IMG/VR virus record: IMGVR_UViG_3300044846_000829
Location: 1 to 34,715 of that record
From: a virus
Length of the DNA: 34,715 nucleotides
Direction: 5' to 3' (one strand)
Part shown: in pieces, positions 20,641-31,098 of the stretch
Layout: the number at the start of each line of letters is the position of its first letter
Numbering within the stretch: position 1 is the stretch's first letter
Translations under genes and position numbers: made by a program
Notes under the pieces: generated by a model
Database searches by the model: none
What the model was told of the DNA's origin: nothing
What the model saw: the letters and a program-made list of their open reading frames with translations, nothing else

Positions 20641-21075
20641 ATGCCAACAACAGGAATTTTTAATGGTACAAACCTAGTAGTTCTAGTAGGAACTGAAGTT
20701 GTAGCTCACTCTACATCTTGCTCTTTATCTGTAAGTGCTGACTTACCAGATGCAACAACTAAATCAAGCGGTGGATGGGCTGATCAAATCGCAGGTTTGC
20801 GTTCTTGGTCTTTAACTACAGATGGTCTTACTACAGTTGAACCAACAGGTACAAACTATGTAGTAGGAGATATTTTCTCTGCTTTAAACGGAAGAGGTGT
20901 AGTTACAGTTAAGTTTACTACAGTTAATGGTAGCACTCCAATAGTAGGTGATTTAATCTGGTCTGGTTCTGCATTTGTAGAAAGCTTAGACATCACTGCT
21001 GATATGGAATCTCCAGTTACTTACTCTGCTGCTTTCACAGGACAAGGAGTATTAACTCAGGCTACTAACGCATAA
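20641..21075 (+). CDS. Major tail tube protein
   Basis: The 144-aa protein has the TP901-1-type tail tube layout. It has a short start MPTTGIFNGTNLVVLVGTEV, then HSTSCSLSVSADLPDATTKS, GGWADQIAGLRSWSLTTDGL and a final ESLDITADMESPVTYSAAFT strand pair. It builds the tube around the tape measure. It resembles residues about 180-310 of the tail-tip protein at 25434-26609. The leader ATTAAAATAAAATAAA is purely A/T. Confidence 0.9.
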   Translation: MPTTGIFNGTNLVVLVGTEVVAHSTSCSLSVSADLPDATTKSSGGWADQIAGLRSWSLTTDGLTTVEPTGTNYVVGDIFSALNGRGVVTVKFTTVNGSTPIVGDLIWSGSAFVESLDITADMESPVTYSAAFTGQGVLTQATNA

Positions 21076-21468: not shown

Positions 21469-21782
21469 AGTGGATTGATATTGAGAGATTTTCAATGGGG
21501 GAGTGCCAAGTGCTTCCCCATTTGTTTTGGGATATGACGATGGCTGAATTAGATTTTGTATGGTATGGCAAAAGACATCAAGAAGAACAAGATTGGATTA
21601 AGTTAAGGTGGCAGACGACTTTATTGATAAATATACACATGAGTAAAGGCAAAAAGGTAAAGCCTACTGACCTTTTACAACTTGACTGCGATAATCGTAA
21701 CTTTGTGAAGCAAAGAGTGATGAGTAATGATGAATTACAAGATGTATTAAAAAAGTATAATAATATCAAACCTATAGGATAA
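21456..21782 (+). CDS. T part of the frameshifted tail chaperone (gpGT)
   Basis: The -1 frame is open from the A9 tract to 21782, encoding KKKLEWIDIERFSMGECQVL, PHLFWDMTMAELDFVWYGKR and a C-terminal VMSNDELQDVLKKYNNIKP. There is no good start of its own (the first ATG, at 21495, has no A/C-rich leader), which supports expression as a fusion by -1 ribosomal slippage. The W..M...ELDFV.YG pattern is typical for T domains. Its stop overlaps the tape measure start as TAATG. Confidence 0.82.
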   Translation, partial: KKKLEWIDIERFSMGECQVLPHLFWDMTMAELDFVWYGKRHQEEQDWIKLRWQTTLLINIHMSKGKKVKPTDLLQLDCDNRNFVKQRVMSNDELQDVLKKYNNIKPIG

Positions 21783-23488
21783 TGGCAGTAGATGAAACAA
21801 TTAGAATTAAGATACAAGCAAATGCTGAAGAGTTTAAGATTGTATCTGACATTATAAATAGAGAATTAGGAAGATTAGGCAAAAACTTTGAGGTTTTAGA
21901 AGGCAATATTAAGCAATCTGCTAATGCAATGAAGCAGTTTGACGGATCATCCAAAAAGTTCAATAAGGGATTAATGAGCATCTCTTTGATACTACAGGAT
22001 TTACCTTATGGTTTTAGAGGTATTCAAAATAACATCCCAGCCTTAGTTCAAGGTATGGGATTAGTTTATTTAGCTATATCTGCTGTAACAGCAGCAATGA
22101 CATACTTTGTTTTACAAGGAGATAAAATGTCTAAGAGTACTAAAGCTATGTATGATAGTTTTAAAGATTTTATTAATGGTGCAGCTTCAACTCTATATTC
22201 AGAACTTAAACCTGTATTTGAATCAATCGTAAGTTCTCTAACTGAGTTATGGAAAATGTTTGGTGAATTTCTTACCGAATCATACATTTCTGCATGGAAT
22301 TTAATAGTAAGTGCAACTAAAAATATTGGACAAATAATAGCTGGTTTATTTAAAGTAATAGTAGCAGTACTTAAAGGAGATTGGCAAGGATTAGGAACTG
22401 CATTAGTTGATATACTTAAAAGAGCATCGAATTTAATAGTAGATGTTCTTATACATATATTTTCTTTGGTGGATAATTTTAAAGCTGCTGTTATAGGTTT
22501 ATTTAGCAAAGACATGGCTAATGTCATAAAAGCACAAACTAAAGGTACAGCAGAATCTTTTGCTAAAACTTTTAAATTTGCATTTGCTGAAACAAAAAAA
22601 GAAACAATAGATTTATTTAGTTTGTTTGGATCAAAAACTAAAGGTGCAGAAGTAACGATAAGTGATTTTGCAAAAACCATGAATAGGTTTAATGAAGAGA
22701 TAAAGAAAATATCTGTATTGTTTTTGGAGTTTAGACAAATGACTGAATTAGATTATTTAGAAGGTCAAATTAAAGCATTAAATGTTGCTATTGATGATTT
22801 AGCTGGTCAAGGAACAGATGAGGCTATCAAAAAATTATCAGAACTTATACAGCTTAGAGGTGAATTACTACTTCAACAAAAGTTAGCAGAAGCACAACAA
22901 AATATTGGTGGTGATATTGAAGTTATAACCGAACCTGTAGCAAAGCCAGTATTTGATAAAAATACTTTTGAAGCAGGTAAAGAGCAATTAGAAGGATGGT
23001 TTGACTCGATAAGAAAGAAGTTTAAGGAAATGCAGAAAATGGCTAAAGAGAATGCAGAGTACTTATTAAAAATAGGTATTGGTATGATGAGTGCTCTTGG
23101 ACCATCTATAGATATGCTTTTAGAAAAAGGAGCTAGTATTAGTGATGTTCTTAGTACAGCATTTTCTGATTTGATTAAAAAATTAGCTAAGGTTGCTATA
23201 GCTGCTGCAATTGTTGTAGCATTAATGGCACTTATAGGATTAGTAGACTTATCACAGATAGGTAAAACATTTGGGATGTTAGTAGGTCAAGGAATGGGAA
23301 TGGGTGCAGGTTTATTCTCAGGTGCATCTGCTGGAACTACTGCAATAGCACCTAAAGCATCTAGTTCAATGGGAGATTTAACTTCAGTTACAGCAATGCA
23401 AAATCAAACATTAGTAGCTCAAGTTTCAGGCAATGATTTATTAGTACTTTTAAACAGAACAAGTAGAAACAATAATAATACGTTCTAA
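21782..23488 (+). CDS. Tape measure protein
   Basis: The 568-aa protein is largely helical. A charged N-terminal coiled coil contains GLMSISLILQDLPYGFRGIQ and NNIPALVQG (about 63-91), a signature of Bacteroidota phage tape measures. A first hydrophobic segment (about 92-112) is followed by long amphipathic helices and a second hydrophobic stretch (about 475-500, KVAIAAAIVVALMALIGLVD). At roughly 0.15 nm per residue it predicts a tail of about 85 nm. It is flanked by the chaperone and tail-tip genes, both through TAATG junctions. Confidence 0.9.
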   Translation: MAVDETIRIKIQANAEEFKIVSDIINRELGRLGKNFEVLEGNIKQSANAMKQFDGSSKKFNKGLMSISLILQDLPYGFRGIQNNIPALVQGMGLVYLAISAVTAAMTYFVLQGDKMSKSTKAMYDSFKDFINGAASTLYSELKPVFESIVSSLTELWKMFGEFLTESYISAWNLIVSATKNIGQIIAGLFKVIVAVLKGDWQGLGTALVDILKRASNLIVDVLIHIFSLVDNFKAAVIGLFSKDMANVIKAQTKGTAESFAKTFKFAFAETKKETIDLFSLFGSKTKGAEVTISDFAKTMNRFNEEIKKISVLFLEFRQMTELDYLEGQIKALNVAIDDLAGQGTDEAIKKLSELIQLRGELLLQQKLAEAQQNIGGDIEVITEPVAKPVFDKNTFEAGKEQLEGWFDSIRKKFKEMQKMAKENAEYLLKIGIGMMSALGPSIDMLLEKGASISDVLSTAFSDLIKKLAKVAIAAAIVVALMALIGLVDLSQIGKTFGMLVGQGMGMGAGLFSGASAGTTAIAPKASSSMGDLTSVTAMQNQTLVAQVSGNDLLVLLNRTSRNNNNTF

Positions 23489-25434
23489 TGGCATTTATAA
23501 ACCCAAAATACGAGATTATATTTGATGATGTATATTCTATTCCTGATGGAACAAACACCGTCTATAGGGCTCAGATTTACAAAGACGGCTATTCTAGTGC
23601 AACTGTATATCCATTAACTGCATCTAATAGTCCTTTTATCATAGAAACTATAGATACAGAGGGTAATGCTTATACACCAATACTAGCTACAAGAGCTACT
23701 TTAAATATAGTAAAGAATGAATTTCAAAGCACTAATTATGCCGAGTTATTACAAGATTTCTTTACTGCTGATGATAATGACTATATGATAGTCGTTACAA
23801 AAGGAACTTATAATGGTTCTTTTACATGGGGTACAATAATATGGAGAGGATTCTTTATACCTGTAGATAGTGTCCAATTTTCACCTGTAGCCTTAAACAG
23901 CTTATCATTATCATTTGTTGATGGTTTAGCTAGGACTAAGAACAAGAAATACTATTTTAACTTAGTTAATGGTATAGGCTTTGACTCAGATGAGCAAGTA
24001 AGCTTAAAAGATTTACTTATTGATTGCTTTGCTAAAACAGAGTTTACTTTAGATGTATGGATTAATGAGTACTACAAAACAGCAAATGTAACTTCTAGGA
24101 ACATAGAAAATATGTACCTAAAGAAGAACTACTTAATGGAGCAATTTGGAGAGTATTTAAACTACTACGATATATTAGAATACCTATGTAATAGGTTTGG
24201 ATGGGAATGTTTCTATGAAGAGGATAAGTGGTATTTAACTGCTTATGGTGCTTTGACTAGAGAATCTACCATTGCTTATTATGTTTATAATAGTGCAGGA
24301 ACATATCAGTCTACACAAAATGTTGGGAATACTACTACGGTTGCTATAGATAGCACAAACAACTTTAAGCAAATAGGTCAATCATTAATGGTTAGCTTTA
24401 ACAGAGCTCAAAAGTCTTATAGCCAATTTAGTCCAATATATAATGTAAAGCAATTAATATCTAATGGCTGGTTCTTATCATGGTCAAGTGCTAATAATGC
24501 CGACGCATGGATTGAAGCAGCAATGGTTGGAACTAAGGCTGATCCTGTTTACGGAGGATTATTAACTTCTGACACTACAACAAACTCTGGAGAAACAAAT
24601 AGGTCATTTAGATCTGTTGGTAGTTTAGTAAAAACTGGTGATTATCTAAATATAGTATGGTCTGCATCTACATTTAATTGTACTGAAAGATATTTTGTAA
24701 GAATTATATCTGAAGATGCTACTACAACTTATTACTTAGATAATACAGGAACATTTACAACTACCTCATATACACTAGGAGCTTTTCCTGGTGGATTTCC
24801 AAAACAAGTAATAGTACCTATAGATGGTACAATAACAGTAACAATACTAAGACCTTTAGAAACTGGTGCAACTCCTCAGTTAGTAGTTGAATACTTTTTA
24901 ATACAGAATGTTGGTCCTACATCTCAAATTTATGCCTATGATTCTTATAGAGAAATCGGTAGTATAAATTCTGAGTTTAAACCTACAGAAACAGAAAACT
25001 TTTCATTAGGCTTTATGTATAATGAAGTATTTAGAAATACAGATTCAAATTCAAGAGTTGCAAACAATCCATTTGACGTAACTGCATCTTCTTATGTAGG
25101 TATGTACACAACATTAAATAATGGTGGATTCGCTAATCAATTTGGTAGAAATGCATCAGGTAGCACAGAGTTGTTTACTTTAGTTGCTCAAGATATTGGT
25201 ATAGACCAAGTACAGACACAAACTGTTATAGAAGGTCAATTTAAAAGCATAGGATATTGGTTAGATAGCAAGTTCACTTATTCTTATGATGCAGTTAACA
25301 CTTACACATACTTATTGAAGTCCTTTAAGTGGGATTTAAAACAAGCAATACAAGAGTCAGTACTAAAGAAGATTAACTACAATGGCACAACTATAGATAT
25401 AGACATATTCAAAAACTTAAATACTAGGAAATAA
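23488..25434 (+). CDS. Tail-tip / baseplate protein (distal tail-like)
   Basis: The 648-aa protein is beta-rich. It starts MAFINPKYEIIFDDVYSIPD, includes TRATLNIVKNEFQSTNYAEL, TWGTIIWRGFFIPVD and LSLSFVDGLARTKNKKYYF. A helical-beta segment around YLCNRFGWECFYEEDKWYLT then leads to a C-terminal beta domain. Its place right after the tape measure and the AELLQDFF...W.G.F.PD strand pattern fit the distal tail / hub proteins of Bacteroidota siphophages. Exact hub versus adaptor role is not resolvable by eye. Confidence 0.75.
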   Translation: MAFINPKYEIIFDDVYSIPDGTNTVYRAQIYKDGYSSATVYPLTASNSPFIIETIDTEGNAYTPILATRATLNIVKNEFQSTNYAELLQDFFTADDNDYMIVVTKGTYNGSFTWGTIIWRGFFIPVDSVQFSPVALNSLSLSFVDGLARTKNKKYYFNLVNGIGFDSDEQVSLKDLLIDCFAKTEFTLDVWINEYYKTANVTSRNIENMYLKKNYLMEQFGEYLNYYDILEYLCNRFGWECFYEEDKWYLTAYGALTRESTIAYYVYNSAGTYQSTQNVGNTTTVAIDSTNNFKQIGQSLMVSFNRAQKSYSQFSPIYNVKQLISNGWFLSWSSANNADAWIEAAMVGTKADPVYGGLLTSDTTTNSGETNRSFRSVGSLVKTGDYLNIVWSASTFNCTERYFVRIISEDATTTYYLDNTGTFTTTSYTLGAFPGGFPKQVIVPIDGTITVTILRPLETGATPQLVVEYFLIQNVGPTSQIYAYDSYREIGSINSEFKPTETENFSLGFMYNEVFRNTDSNSRVANNPFDVTASSYVGMYTTLNNGGFANQFGRNASGSTELFTLVAQDIGIDQVQTQTVIEGQFKSIGYWLDSKFTYSYDAVNTYTYLLKSFKWDLKQAIQESVLKKINYNGTTIDIDIFKNLNTRK

Positions 25435-26609
25435 TGGCATCAGTAATAAACGGAACTAACATAGTATTATATAAATACGATTCAAATAAACAATATTATT
25501 TTAATGGTTCTATTAGTCAAGGAATAACCGTAAATGGTTTTGCTTGTAAAGAATTAAGTACTGAAGATATAGTTGGAACTTCTACTAACTTTAATAAGAC
25601 AGGAGCAGGAGTAATAGCTTCTTTTATAACAGATGCTAATGATCCAGGCATTACTGAGATTACTGCTGGTACATGGAGTATATCTGCTTATTATTCTATA
25701 GCAACTGCCTTTGCAGGAGCTAAAGTACAATATAAGTTATACAAATATGTAGGTTCAACAGCTACCTTGTTAGCTACTTCAGATGAAACTACACTAACAT
25801 CTCTTAGTAAGATTATATATAATACTAATATGACAGTAACTACTACTGTTTTAGGAATTACAGATAGGATCATTATAGAGGTAGTTTACTTAGGTACTAC
25901 TACTAATGAGATTACCTTATATACACAGTCAACTAATCCTGGCATAACTACAACTAATATTTCTTTAGGTGTTCCGTTTGGTGCATCTACTAATTGTACT
26001 TTTAGTACAAGTGTGGACCAAGTAGAGGTAACAACTACTAATAGTTATTCTTATAAAGAGTTCTTAGGCTCTCAAATAAGCTGGAATATAACTGCTGATG
26101 GTTTTATAGCTCTTAATGATTATTCTTACTTATTCTTGCTTAATAAGCTACAAACTAAGGAACAAATAATAGTTAAATTTCAAATAGATAATGATAATGG
26201 CAATGGTACAGGTGCTTTAGGTTATAGCATCTTTACAGGTAATGCTAATATTGTTAATTTAGATATGAGTGGTCCTGTTGAAGGTGCATCTACTTATAGT
26301 GTGTCTTTACAAGGTACAGGTCCTTATACAGTATCAGGAACACAAGTTACACCTACAGGCGTAGTAATAGAAAGCTCAAACGTTGTTATGTACCAATATA
26401 TTGCTAGTGGAGGTGAAACTATTGTAACATTTGCAGGTGCAATTAGTTCAACTTGTTTAACAGTTACAAGAGGTGGTTTAGAGGTTAGAACTATATTAAC
26501 GTCAGGTGCTCCTACAGGTGAGAATGTGACGTTTAACTCATCTACAGGAGTTCTTACCTTTGCAAGAGCATTAGAGGCGGATGAGTTTGTTAGAGCAATT
26601 TTCAAATAG
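25434..26609 (+). CDS. Mosaic tail-tip protein with tail-tube-like domain
   Basis: The 391-aa protein has three parts. Residues about 21-175 (YYFNGSISQG to TLYTQSTNPG) are homologous to residues 59-217 of the fibre. Residues about 185-305 (CTFSTSVDQVEVTTTN, SQISWNITADGF, VNLDMSGPVEGASTYSVSLQ) parallel the major tail tube. The C-terminal ~85 residues are a small beta domain with ESSNVVMYQYIASGGETIVT and a VLTFARALEADEFVRAIF end. It may be a tip ring that continues the tube and carries a receptor-facing decoration. The start overlaps the preceding stop (TAATG). Confidence 0.7.
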   Translation: MASVINGTNIVLYKYDSNKQYYFNGSISQGITVNGFACKELSTEDIVGTSTNFNKTGAGVIASFITDANDPGITEITAGTWSISAYYSIATAFAGAKVQYKLYKYVGSTATLLATSDETTLTSLSKIIYNTNMTVTTTVLGITDRIIIEVVYLGTTTNEITLYTQSTNPGITTTNISLGVPFGASTNCTFSTSVDQVEVTTTNSYSYKEFLGSQISWNITADGFIALNDYSYLFLLNKLQTKEQIIVKFQIDNDNGNGTGALGYSIFTGNANIVNLDMSGPVEGASTYSVSLQGTGPYTVSGTQVTPTGVVIESSNVVMYQYIASGGETIVTFAGAISSTCLTVTRGGLEVRTILTSGAPTGENVTFNSSTGVLTFARALEADEFVRAIFK

Positions 26610-26624
26610 TTAAAATAGATATAA

Positions 26625-29600
26625 ATGAGTTCACAATTACAGGTATCAGGAGAAGCAAAGATTAGGGACATACAAGGTCCAGTAGTGGCTAATAGTGGGG
26701 TAATAACTGCTTTAGATGGTGCTGCTTCTCAATATGTACGAGGTGATGGTACATTAGCTGACTTTCCAACATCAAGTGGTGGTGGTAGTTCGGTTTCTTA
26801 TTATCTTAACTCAAGTGTAAGTCAAGGTACAATCGGAGGGGTTGCTTATAGACAATTAGGCAAAACACCTATTGCTGGTGCTGGAACTGATATTGCTATA
26901 TCTTCAAATGGATATGTAGCAAGTTACATAACTGATGCTAATGACCCAGCTTTATTAGAAGTACCAGCTGGTAACTTTAATTGTGAGTTTTATTTTAGTG
27001 TAAACAACAATTCAGGAAACCCTTTTGTTTATGCAGAGGTTTATAAATATGATGGCACAACTTTTACCTTAATAGGTACAAGCGTTGGAGTTCCAGAGTA
27101 CATTAATCAAGGAACTGTAATTAACCCTTATTATTTTGCAATACCAGTTGCTCAAAGTGTATTGACTGTTACGGATAGAATAGCGATTAGAATCTATGTA
27201 AACGTAAGTGGTAGAACAGTTACTTTACATACTGAAAACAATCACTTGTGTCAAGTAATTACTACTTTCTCAAAAGGATTAATCTCTTTAAATAACCTTA
27301 CAAGACAAAACCAATTCTTTGCGACAGGAACAAGCGGAACGGACTTTGGGATATCTTCAAGCGTAGCTACTCATACTTTTAACCTACCTGTCGCTTCGGC
27401 TACAAATACTGGTAAGTTAAGTTCAACGGATTGGAGTACGTTTAATAACAAGCAAAACACAATAACTGACCCAATCACAGGAATAGGAAATAGTACACAA
27501 ATTGCTTATTTCAATAGTCCTACAAGCATTACAAGTGAGGCAGCGTTTAACTACGATGCTTCTACAAATAGACTTGGAGTTAATACTTCAGTTCCTAATG
27601 CAACTATCGGAGCAAATGCTGGGACTGATAGCGGTTACTCTTTGTTGCTTAAAAATGACAACGCAAACTATAATGGTATCGGATTCGGTACTGATTCAAC
27701 ATACGGCAACTTAATAGCTACTGAAAAGTTGGGAACTGCACCAGCAAGGAATTTAACCTTGTTAAACCAAAGCGGTTACATCTCAATAACAGAGGTTGGT
27801 AATTTAGGGGTAAACATTTTAAGTCCTAATACTGGATTAGACATTTATAATGGCACAAGTGCCTATTTATGGCTTCATACGGCTAACTCTGGCATTACAG
27901 GTACAGATGGGGTTAGATTGGCTTTATTTAGCACTAATGCTGCTAATTTAAGGAACTACGAAGGTGCGTTCAGTATTACGGCTGAAGGCGATTTCTCAAT
28001 CATTACTTTAGGTGCTGAAAACCTAAGAGTAAATAGTGCCGATGGTAGTATTTATCAATCTAAGGTTGCTAATGCTTTACTTAAATCTGTTAGTGGTGTA
28101 ATTACTGCTGCCGTTGCAAATACTGATTATCAATCTCCAATTAGCTTAACAACAAGTGGTTCAAGTGGTGCTGCAACTTTCTCAAGCAATATTTTAAACG
28201 TACCTAATTACACTTTAAGTGGTTTAGGTGGTGTACCTACATCAAGAACTTTAAGTATTAATGGAGTTTCTTATGATTTAAGTGCAGATAGAAGCTGGAC
28301 AATTACTTCTGATATTACTGGTAGTGGTGCAGATGGTAGAGTTGCTTATTGGAATGGTACAAATAGTATCACATCGGAAGCTGGATTTATATACGATGCA
28401 TCAACAAATAGATTAGGGGTAAACACAAGCGTTCCTAATGCGACAATAGGTGCTGATGCTGCTTTAGATAGCGGATATGGTTTACTTATTAAAACAGGTG
28501 CATCTAACTATAACGGAATAGGAATAGCGATAGATTCTACTTATGGTAACTTAATCTCAACAGAAAAAATAGGTTCTGCAACTGCAAGAAACTTAACTCT
28601 ACTTAATCAAAGTGGATTTGTTTCATTAAAAGAGAATGGGAACTTTGGTGTAAATACTTTAAACCCTTCTGTTAGCGGAACAGGAATAGACATATATGGT
28701 TCAACAAGTACATCATTAAGATTACATACTGCAACAAGTGGTACAACTGTAACTGATGGTGCTGGTATTAACTTTAGTGCTGCAAATAACTTAGGAATTA
28801 CAAACTACGAGAACGGAACAATAGACATCGTTACGAATGGTAACTCTGGTGTCTTTGTAGCTACTAATGGCTTTGTAGGAATCAATGGAGCAACTCCAAG
28901 TGTGGCTTTAACTGTAAATGGCGGTGCTTCAATAAGCAACTTAACAACTGGTCAAGTATTATTCCCTACAAGTGGTGGTACTTTAAGTGGCTCAAGTAGT
29001 TTATTTTGGGATAATACTAATGCAAAATTAGGTATTGGTACAAGTACATTAAGTGGTGCAAGGGTAACTATAACAAGTACAAGCGATGCAAATCATTTGC
29101 AATTAGTAGCTAATGCTCCAGCTTTGACTTTTACAAATGCTTTATCAATAACTTATTATGCTGGTATTGGAATGGCTACGGCTTCTAATAACTTTGTTAC
29201 AGGAGCGGTTCAAGGTGATTTGGTTTTAGGAGCATTTAACACAAGTAGTATATTATTTTGTAATAATAACACTAATACTCTTAGAATGAGCCTAAATGGT
29301 TCAGGTGCAGCAATTTTCTCTGGTAGCGTAACGGCAAGAGGACCAAAATCACAAATTATTGCTGATGGTAATTCGGTAGGTGCTGGTATATTATTAAGTA
29401 ATTCAATAGTAGGTGTTAATAGAAGAAATTGGGGAATATTTACTGAACAAGATGTAGAAGGAGATTTTGTTATTAAAAGGTCAACTGTTTCTGGAGGTGA
29501 TGCACAAAGTGGTACAACTATATTGTCATTGTCAAGAGATGGTGCTGCTACATTCTCAAGTAGTGTAACGGCTTATGGACCAGCTAATGATTGGGGATTA

Positions 29601-30770
29601 AGTATTTGGGGAAGCACAACAACTGGACAATCTTTTGGCGGTATTGTAAGAGGAGGCACTAATTCAAGTGATGTTGCATTTAGAGTAAATAATGCTGCAA
29701 ATTCATTAACATATTTTACAGTACAAGGGAATGGTAACGTTGGAATCGGAACTGGTAGTCCATCATCTCCATCAAGTTTTGCAAAAACTATGACAATTTA
29801 TGATGCTTCAAGTGCTTCATATTCATTTAACGTAGCAGATACTTATAGAGGTGAAATAGGAATGTCATCAGGCGGAGGTTGGTTAAGTACATATACAAAT
29901 GACCCTTTTAGATTCATTACTAACAATACCGAACGTATGCGTATCACAAGTGGTGGTAACGTATTAATAGGAACGACTACATTTTATAATGGTAATTTTA
30001 GTGGTAGTGCATCAGGATTAAATATAAATGGTGCAGTGCCAATTTCGTTATTACGCGATGCTGCTGGAAATACATTTTATATGGGATTATCAGGTGCTGC
30101 ATTTATTGGTACACAAAATGCAATACCAATGGTATTTATTACAAGTGATGCCGAACGTATGAGAATCTCATCGGGGGGTAAAGTAGAAATTAGCATACCA
30201 ACATTAGCTAATGCATTAAAATTAAATGGTGCTAATAGTTATTTTACACAATTTATTAAAGGAGGAAGTGGTACAGGTACAAGTTATGGTTTAACAATAG
30301 CTGCTGGAACAAATAGTAGTGATACTTGTTTTGAATGTACACCTTATAATGAATCAGTAAGTTATTTTAGAGTAAGAGGAGATGGATTAATGTTTAGCCC
30401 TCCAACTTATGCAAGTACAACTGGAAATGCTGCTAATGTGTTTATTTTTTCTGGTGGTGATTTTGGTAGGTCAACATCATCAAGAAAGTATAAAAAGAAT
30501 ATAATTGATTACCAAAAAGGATTAGCTGAATTAATGACTTTAAGACCAGTGTCTTATGAAAGTATTAATGAAAGAGAAGATGGTATGCAGTTTGCTGGAT
30601 TAATAGCTGAAGAAATTGAAGATGCTGGATTTACCGAATTTGTTCAATACGCAGAAGATGGTACTCCAGATGCAATTTCTTATGGTAATATGATTGCATT
30701 AATGACTAAAGCTATTCAAGAACAACAAGCTCAAATAGAAGAACTTAAAGAATTAATTAAAAATAAATAA
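26625..30770 (+). CDS. Tail fibre with C-terminal S74 self-cleaving chaperone
   Basis: The 1381-aa protein is the largest product. The N-terminus (MSSQLQVSGEAKIRDIQGPV) includes YVRGDGTLADFP (38-49), and residues 59-217 hold the module shared with the preceding protein. A shaft of fibre repeats follows, with two ~180-residue related copies (from residues 293 and 573) and later ERMRI(T/S)SGG and NVGIGT units. The last 97 residues form a peptidase S74 / intramolecular chaperone domain: SSRKYKKNI (Ser1285 and Lys1290 as dyad), LRPVSYES and FAGLIAEEIED, ending in a coiled coil QEQQAQIEELKELIKN. It trimerises the fibre and then releases itself. This is the probable receptor-binding protein. Confidence 0.92.
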   Translation: MSSQLQVSGEAKIRDIQGPVVANSGVITALDGAASQYVRGDGTLADFPTSSGGGSSVSYYLNSSVSQGTIGGVAYRQLGKTPIAGAGTDIAISSNGYVASYITDANDPALLEVPAGNFNCEFYFSVNNNSGNPFVYAEVYKYDGTTFTLIGTSVGVPEYINQGTVINPYYFAIPVAQSVLTVTDRIAIRIYVNVSGRTVTLHTENNHLCQVITTFSKGLISLNNLTRQNQFFATGTSGTDFGISSSVATHTFNLPVASATNTGKLSSTDWSTFNNKQNTITDPITGIGNSTQIAYFNSPTSITSEAAFNYDASTNRLGVNTSVPNATIGANAGTDSGYSLLLKNDNANYNGIGFGTDSTYGNLIATEKLGTAPARNLTLLNQSGYISITEVGNLGVNILSPNTGLDIYNGTSAYLWLHTANSGITGTDGVRLALFSTNAANLRNYEGAFSITAEGDFSIITLGAENLRVNSADGSIYQSKVANALLKSVSGVITAAVANTDYQSPISLTTSGSSGAATFSSNILNVPNYTLSGLGGVPTSRTLSINGVSYDLSADRSWTITSDITGSGADGRVAYWNGTNSITSEAGFIYDASTNRLGVNTSVPNATIGADAALDSGYGLLIKTGASNYNGIGIAIDSTYGNLISTEKIGSATARNLTLLNQSGFVSLKENGNFGVNTLNPSVSGTGIDIYGSTSTSLRLHTATSGTTVTDGAGINFSAANNLGITNYENGTIDIVTNGNSGVFVATNGFVGINGATPSVALTVNGGASISNLTTGQVLFPTSGGTLSGSSSLFWDNTNAKLGIGTSTLSGARVTITSTSDANHLQLVANAPALTFTNALSITYYAGIGMATASNNFVTGAVQGDLVLGAFNTSSILFCNNNTNTLRMSLNGSGAAIFSGSVTARGPKSQIIADGNSVGAGILLSNSIVGVNRRNWGIFTEQDVEGDFVIKRSTVSGGDAQSGTTILSLSRDGAATFSSSVTAYGPANDWGLSIWGSTTTGQSFGGIVRGGTNSSDVAFRVNNAANSLTYFTVQGNGNVGIGTGSPSSPSSFAKTMTIYDASSASYSFNVADTYRGEIGMSSGGGWLSTYTNDPFRFITNNTERMRITSGGNVLIGTTTFYNGNFSGSASGLNINGAVPISLLRDAAGNTFYMGLSGAAFIGTQNAIPMVFITSDAERMRISSGGKVEISIPTLANALKLNGANSYFTQFIKGGSGTGTSYGLTIAAGTNSSDTCFECTPYNESVSYFRVRGDGLMFSPPTYASTTGNAANVFIFSGGDFGRSTSSRKYKKNIIDYQKGLAELMTLRPVSYESINEREDGMQFAGLIAEEIEDAGFTEFVQYAEDGTPDAISYGNMIALMTKAIQEQQAQIEELKELIKNK
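27501..28890 (+). repeat. Internal fibre duplication (two ~180-residue copies)
   Basis: Copy A starts at 27501 (IAYFNSPTSITSEAAFNYDA) and copy B at 28341 (VAYWNGTNSITSEAGFIYDA), 840 bases apart. Both contain DASTNRLGVNTSVPNATIGA, DSTYGNLI, ARNLTLLNQSG and a LHTA.SG ending. Protein similarity is high but codons differ widely, so the duplication is old or was acquired separately. Confidence 0.85.
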
Positions 30771-30771
30771 T

Positions 30772-31098
30772 ATGAAATACTGGTACATTAATCAATTAGA
30801 CTGCGTTCCACAAGATGGTGATTTAACTGACTTTGTTGTTGTCGCCCATTGGTCAAGGTTCGCAAAAGAAACAATCAACGAGAAGGAATACCAAGCAAGT
30901 GTCTATGGTTCTCAATCATTCTCAAAGGATGATGTTACTAACTTTATCCCCTACGAGGACTTAACTTATGAAATAGTATGTGGTTGGTTGGATGCTTCTT
31001 TAGATGTAGAGGCTTTAGACCTTAATTTAGACCAACAAATAGAGAATCAAGTTAACCCACCGATTGTGGTGCTTCCGTTACCTTTTACAAATCCGTAA
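30772..31098 (+). CDS. Conserved fibre-adjacent protein, unknown
   Basis: The 108-aa protein includes GDLTDFVVVAHWSRFAKET, KEYQASVYGSQSF, NFIPYEDLTYEIVCGWLDAS and a proline-rich end VVLPLPFTNP. This DFVVVAHWS...YGS..F..YEDLT...V.GWL pattern is a common phage module next to or fused with tail fibres, possibly a fibre chaperone or cap. It starts two bases after the fibre stop, which supports a joint function. No catalytic motif is visible. Confidence 0.65.
   Translation: MKYWYINQLDCVPQDGDLTDFVVVAHWSRFAKETINEKEYQASVYGSQSFSKDDVTNFIPYEDLTYEIVCGWLDASLDVEALDLNLDQQIENQVNPPIVVLPLPFTNP

Follow-up and report, generated by a model that had tools for sequence, protein, structure and literature searches.

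The reuse of tube-fold proteins along phage tails is a known phenomenon, which often becomes visible only from structures because the sequences have diverged too far. In phage T5, the tail-tip ring formed by the tube paralogue p140 has been attributed to a duplication of the tube gene, with p140 and pb6 sharing 9% identity, and this ring is surrounded by a collar of p132 which anchors the L-shaped (side) fibres (PMC10038345). Partner proteins can also be held by dedicated domains, as the XD2 and XD3 domains of the tailspike TSP4 of phage CBA120 bind partner tailspikes (PMC8825819). Searching the literature for tube paralogues or second tail-tube proteins that had been given a name yielded nothing relevant. 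Here, we describe a locus in which the kinship between the major tail tube protein (TUBE) and a second protein of the tail cluster (TIP) is detectable in sequence. The window, namely the whole stretch of DNA analysed, is a virus contig of 34,715 nucleotides with 34% GC (IMG/VR record IMGVR_UViG_3300044846_000829), in which the tape-measure gene (TMP) is followed by the genes for the hub, TIP and an S74 fibre (Table 1).

Table 1. Features of the tail cluster discussed in the text (positions refer to the window).
Feature	Position	Strand	Remarks
TUBE, major tail tube protein (PF06199)	20641..21075	+	144 aa
Central hub of gp27/VgrG/Tal type	23488..25434	+	648 aa; directly upstream of TIP; predicted fold
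Hub residues ~318-477, nested CBM-like jelly roll	24439..24918	+	structure comparison
TIP gene	25434..26609	+	391 aa; jelly roll nested in a split tube fold, plus C-terminal dock-like domain
TIP residues 1-16, strand 1 of tube fold	25434..25481	+	INGTNIVLY = FNGTNLVVL of TUBE; retained in insert-less relatives
TIP residues 17-177, nested beta jelly roll (CBM-like) in beta1-beta2 hairpin	25482..25964	+	absent from >30 relatives; model
TIP residues 178-302, remainder of tube fold	25965..26339	+	Pfam, PDB profile match, model
TIP residues 195-214, beta2-beta3 loop	26016..26075	+	many columns separating the two hub-linked core types
TIP residues 303-391, small C-terminal domain like the XD2/XD3 docking domains (CBA120 TSP4, B2 gp48/49)	26340..26606	+	absent in L151, L233, L234, L235
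Fibre N-terminal MSSQLQVSG... segment (residues 1-58)	26625..26798	+	candidate partner of TIP C-terminal domain
Fibre residues 59-207, in which the TIP jelly roll recurs	26799..27245	+	34% identity, E 2e-19
Peptidase_S74 intramolecular chaperone of fibre	30477..30644	+	

The first-pass annotation had noted that a part of TIP mirrors the tube protein in three pairs of segments, and all three pairs were indeed found in that order (TIP residues 185-204, 215-224 and 275-294; TUBE residues 24-43, 54-63 and 115-134). By BLASTP, TIP residues 185-296 align with TUBE residues 24-136 (E 2e-11), 28% of the 116 columns being identical, and the Smith-Waterman score of 129 for the two proteins exceeds the mean of 43 (z 12.2) as well as the maximum of 74 obtained with 1000 shuffled sequences. 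Upon omission of TIP residues 17-177, the score even rises to 143 (z 18.2), because the first strand (VINGTNIVL in TIP, IFNGTNLVV in TUBE) then aligns too. Both proteins further pass the Pfam gathering cutoff of PF06199 (Phage_tail_2; 34.8 bits for TIP and 36.5 bits for TUBE, cutoff 23.8), a profile that was matched by all 29 of 29 TIPs, both match the major tail protein family phrog_1407 (E 4.5e-16 and E 5.8e-24, respectively), and PDB searches with either a TIP or a TUBE profile retrieve the monocin tail tube MttP (8qhs). The resemblance is thus far beyond chance and the tube domain of TIP is, judged by these alignments and profiles, homologous to TUBE. Matches of TIP to the Pfam families DUF5627 and SPIN90_LRD lay below the cutoffs and were disregarded. 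It is TUBE that occupies the slot between the tail terminator and the tape-measure chaperones, the usual place of a PF06199 gene, and TIP comes after TMP and hub. No full-length TIP was found among the cultured phages searched, and no TIP relatives were found in the bacterial genome contigs scanned with TIP core patterns.

The stretch of residues 185-305 that had been proposed as the tube domain of TIP could be verified as such, but it is incomplete, since strand 1 lies at residues 4-13, on the other side of an insert. The segment INGTNIVLY (TIP residues 5-13) was invariant across the first 26 relatives aligned and corresponds to the start of TUBE, FNGTNLVVL, while the second tube strand is delayed in TIP until residue 178. 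More than 30 relatives lack exactly residues 17-177 and link residue 16 to about residue 177 via a short turn, as in the following example: MASVINGTNIVLYQYNATTGLSVPFGAATNCSF. It is because of these insert-less forms that we regard the jelly roll as nested within the tube fold, and the beta1-beta2 hairpin of that fold hence naturally tolerates a domain of about 160 residues.

For the predicted structure, an AlphaFold2 monomer model of TIP was used that had been built from an alignment of TIP sequences only, without any tube protein, and in which VIA-align resolves three units. Residues 6-305 minus the insert, a part modelled with low confidence, were matched by VIA-align to the GTA tube 6tba (Z 10.3, 125/130 residues), lambda gpV (Z 9.4) and monocin MttP (Z 9.2). 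As the pLDDT of this tube part is low (~40-70), its identity as a tube domain rests on the sequence evidence; nevertheless, sequence and structure prediction both support the fold relationship with the tube that had been suggested earlier, and the predicted fold is not an unrelated one. The top Foldseek matches of the whole model (esterases) stem from the insert alone and are uninformative on the tube part.

Residues 17-177 compare best with C-terminal jelly rolls, namely those of PaL (Z 16) and cocaine esterase (Z 14.4), and further with CBM6 (Z 9.4) and CBM35 (Z 9.2; all VIA-align), so that the nested domain is, according to the model, of a CBM-like jelly-roll fold. It is from this fold only that sugar binding by the domain may be read. 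The idea of a receptor-facing module fused to the tube domain therefore needs to be modified: extra modules are present, but there are two of them, of which one is nested in the first hairpin rather than joined end-to-end, and the other is C-terminal and resembles a fibre dock. In the fibre genes of the window and of relatives, the jelly roll is variably placed and starts from about residue 59, 146, 230 or 396. It appears that the jelly roll moves between TIP and fibre genes.

With regard to the origin of TIP, phylogenetic analysis with long-branch sequences excluded recovered TIP, on a long branch, as one clade (98/98) and TUBE as another (93/96). Under the same exclusion, the two are sisters relative to the tubes of other phages with weak support (86/73), and a tree that included the long branches neither showed nor rejected this grouping. 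We can safely state, on the sequence evidence, that TIP is a tube paralogue. The duplication of a tube gene that had been postulated thus holds in so far as common descent is concerned, but a copy made from the phage's own TUBE gene within this lineage is not demonstrated by these trees, as TIP is an old clade on a long branch. A recent copying of the tube domain from the own tube gene was consequently dropped, given the separate clades and long branches of TIP and TUBE.

The protein encoded directly upstream of TIP had no significant family match in Pfam or PHROGs, and its predicted fold matches the spikes of phage Milano and of PVC (Z 17), Mu gp44 (Z 14.7), 80alpha Tal (Z 12.3) and T5 pb3 (Z 11.0). 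Its nested jelly roll has a Z of 11.6 to CBM16 and is located in the part of the hub that is most divergent across relatives. In 185 of the 198 complete relatives, TIP is immediately preceded by a hub-sized gene. Phages of Cellulophaga and Salinibacter possess related hubs, and this kinship suggests a host within the Bacteroidota.

Since Dits are tube-fold rings of which evolved forms carry inserted CBMs (PMC7291167), one could imagine that TIP simply represents the Dit of this phage family, namely the hexameric ring that every such tail would need to join its tube to the hub trimer, here made from an insert-bearing tube paralogue with a role in adhesion and encoded after the hub. In line with this, no Dit gene was recognised in the tail cluster (window positions 21782-25434), where the hub gene begins within the tape-measure gene, so that the latter runs directly into it, and the core type of TIP tracks the class of the hub (see below). 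However, the gene order differs from the TMP-Dit-Tal arrangement, as TIP sits after the hub and not in the slot between TMP and Tal/hub that is typical of Dit, and TIP had no Dit match in Pfam or PHROGs at E values up to 1. Moreover, in Cellulophaga phi12:1 and Salinibacter M1EM-1, which possess related hubs, TMP leads straight to the hub and neither a Dit nor a TIP was recognised, so that a hub of this kind may stack directly on the tube. As phi12:1 thus combines a related hub with the lack of a recognisable TIP, a TIP ring is not required in every such tail. Taken together, we consider it rather unlikely that TIP is a Dit in this strict sense. Judged by eye only, phi12:1 gp59, which is encoded at the position of TIP, resembles a protein of the fibre type rather than a tube.

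Among the relatives, four combinations of the three parts of TIP are seen: the core alone (146 aa, L235), a bare tube domain that equals TUBE in size; core plus insert (300 aa; L151, L233, L234); core plus C-terminal domain (about 235 aa; L182, L185 and L206, among others); and the complete set of parts (391 aa). On a tree computed from the core only, the insert state changes six times, with five of these changes forced by well-supported branches. These relatives show that insert and C-terminal domain are gained and lost independently of each other, with the tube core being retained. TUBE itself is of steady length among relatives (about 140-160 aa). The TIPs that look short in L170, L033 and L059 were rejected as dock-less forms, since they appear to be frame breaks instead. 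A distinct long-branch group of TIP cores (L172-L180, the kind found in L172, L173 and L179) lacks part of the NDNG stretch, and in L178 a TIP of this kind is accompanied by a highly divergent tube protein. Directly after TIP, ORFs that by eye resemble HNH-type homing endonucleases are present in L172 (4936-5463) and L140 (7485-7955), and it is possible that such ORFs drive the exchange of modules there.

The core of TIP, in turn, goes along with the hub. Core class and hub class agreed in 153 of 153 loci (55 versus 98 in the two classes), and in the pooled data the correlation with the hub was 0.64-0.68 for the core compared to 0.24 for the insert, even though the DNA of the insert separates the hub gene from the core. 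Within the two classes, core-hub and insert-hub correlations were nearly the same (0.29 versus 0.26 and 0.83 versus 0.81); the pooled correlation therefore mostly reflects one deep split into two classes and serves as supporting evidence only. Numerous columns by which the two core types can be told apart fall into the beta2-beta3 loop (residues 201-214), and in lambda gpV this loop mediates the contact between rings (PMC8718954). The class agreement hence supports, but does not prove, a contact between TIP and hub.

These data also bear on the notion that TIP might be a minor decorated tube subunit of the shaft, which is mixed with or replaces TUBE rings and provides adhesion along the tail in the manner of SPP1 gp17.1* or TpeX of the 936 phages. 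Decorated tube proteins are known (PMC6669499, PMC8718954), and the model suggests that TIP has retained the full tube fold. Nevertheless, we regard this as improbable: in almost every complete locus, the TIP gene is flanked by those for hub and fibre and is placed away from the tube gene, its core type tracks the hub class while the tube-hub correlation is merely 0.16, and one end of TIP resembles a fibre dock.

This end, the C-terminal domain, compares over TIP residues 314-391 with residues 261-332 of CBA120 TSP4, the XD3 region (Z 8.6, 26% identity), and with a domain of phage B2 gp48/gp49 (Z 9.2, 66/69 residues; both VIA-align), with identities of 23-26% to the TSP4 and B2 matches. The gene after a dock-bearing TIP nearly always encodes a fibre with a conserved N-terminus of the MSxQLQ type, and variation of this N-terminus correlates better with the C-terminal domain of TIP (r 0.60) than with the core (0.36), the C-terminal domain also being the part nearest to the fibre. 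In the window, a DUF7936 protein (E 2.3e-20) is encoded just past the fibre at 30772-31098. In the dock-less TIPs, which come from four contigs and two core clades, a 121-aa protein is encoded 67-78 bp downstream; three of these four contigs had been retrieved using the p132-like protein as query, and they represent about two independent events. The 121-aa protein matches phrog_1084 (E 8.5e-19), as does T5 p132 (E 2.7e-28), and it was the next neighbour in none of the 170 assessable dock-bearing TIPs. From this, we infer that the C-terminal domain constitutes a built-in fibre dock that a p132 collar can replace. No p132-like gene was found in the window. Farther downstream of TIP, a p132-like gene is present in 11 dock-bearing loci (L236-L238 and others), several of which then encode a second fibre, suggesting that such phages possess two fibre-mounting systems.

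The proximity to the fibre could also mean that TIP forms no ring at all and that its tube fold is a relic which serves as the head of a side-fibre anchor, an adaptor outside the hub. The position of the gene before the fibre, the docking-type C-terminal domain and the long branch that separates TIP from TUBE would all fit. The retention of the whole tube fold, including the beta2-beta3 loop, helix 1 and the strand order, is, however, at odds with a relic, and the 146-aa form of L235, a bare domain of the size of TUBE, is hard to fit, so that we hold this to be very improbable.

From our point of view, it is probable that TIP is a tube-derived ring near the hub that carries exchangeable modules for adhesion and fibre docking. 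The putative location in a tip ring is supported by the gene position, the parallel with T5 p140/p132 and the co-segregation with the hub class. As such, a tube paralogue would have become a part of the tail tip, its tube fold forming a single ring, presumably of six copies, at the junction of tube and gp27-type hub. The nested domain would face outward and help to bind sugars of the host surface, and the C-terminal domain would hold the S74 fibre, the product of the following gene, by its N-terminus, a task that in dock-less forms may be taken over by the p132-like collar encoded beside TIP. The ring may moreover replace the Dit that was not recognised in the tail cluster. More tentatively, and as slightly less likely than not, one could propose that a common class of environmental siphophages is built in this way beside its tube gene, with the ring as a chassis, a ring core matched to the hub class, a nested adhesion domain and an end dock that are swapped independently, and a collar of the T5 p132 type that can substitute for the dock. 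Among the natural relatives, every module deletion is represented (forms of 146, about 235, 300 and 391 aa), which makes the roles of ring, adhesion domain and dock directly testable.

In comparison with known systems, T5 p140 (phrog_3889, base plate tail tube protein) resembles TIP in being a tube paralogue whose tail cluster also contains a distinct tube gene, and a homologue of T5 p132 (phrog_1084) adjoins the dock-less TIPs, though not the TIP of the window. However, p140 assembles as a trimeric pseudo-hexamer, as does its parent pb6 with a doubled domain, and it is undecorated and encoded next to the tube gene, whereas TIP has one tube domain, a nested jelly roll, a dock-like C-terminal domain of its own and a gene located after the hub. 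The two also belong to different families, as p140 matches phrog_3889 only and TIP phrog_1407 only. Evolved Dits share with TIP, given its presumed ring form and tip position, the tube fold and CBM-type modules in loops that are variably present among close relatives (PMC7291167, PMC6669499). They differ in that their CBM resides in the peripheral galectin domain, while that of TIP is placed in the beta1-beta2 hairpin of the tube fold, and in that the TIP sequence is recognisable as a tube (PF06199) and not as a Dit. Tube folds with C-terminal or nested outward domains are likewise found in the Ig domains of lambda gpV and T5 pb6, domain 2 of YSD1, SPP1 gp17.1* and TpeX of the 936 phages (PMC8718954); the nested beta-sandwich of YSD1 domain 2 lies between alpha1 and beta4, in contrast to the TIP insert between beta1 and beta2, and unlike these decorated major tail proteins, TIP is encoded by a separate gene beside a real tube gene and gains and loses its add-ons. 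CBA120 TSP4 XD2/XD3 and B2 gp48/gp49, lastly, display the same fold as the C-terminal domain of TIP, but within a trimeric spike or fibre and not in a tube paralogue. By analogy, the best explanation is that TIP would work in the manner of both T5 p140 and an evolved Dit. The p140/p132 mode of mounting side fibres is thereby suggested to extend past the T5 family and, if the class of siphophages proposed above exists, T5 p140/p132 would exemplify a broader principle instead of being a device of T5 only.
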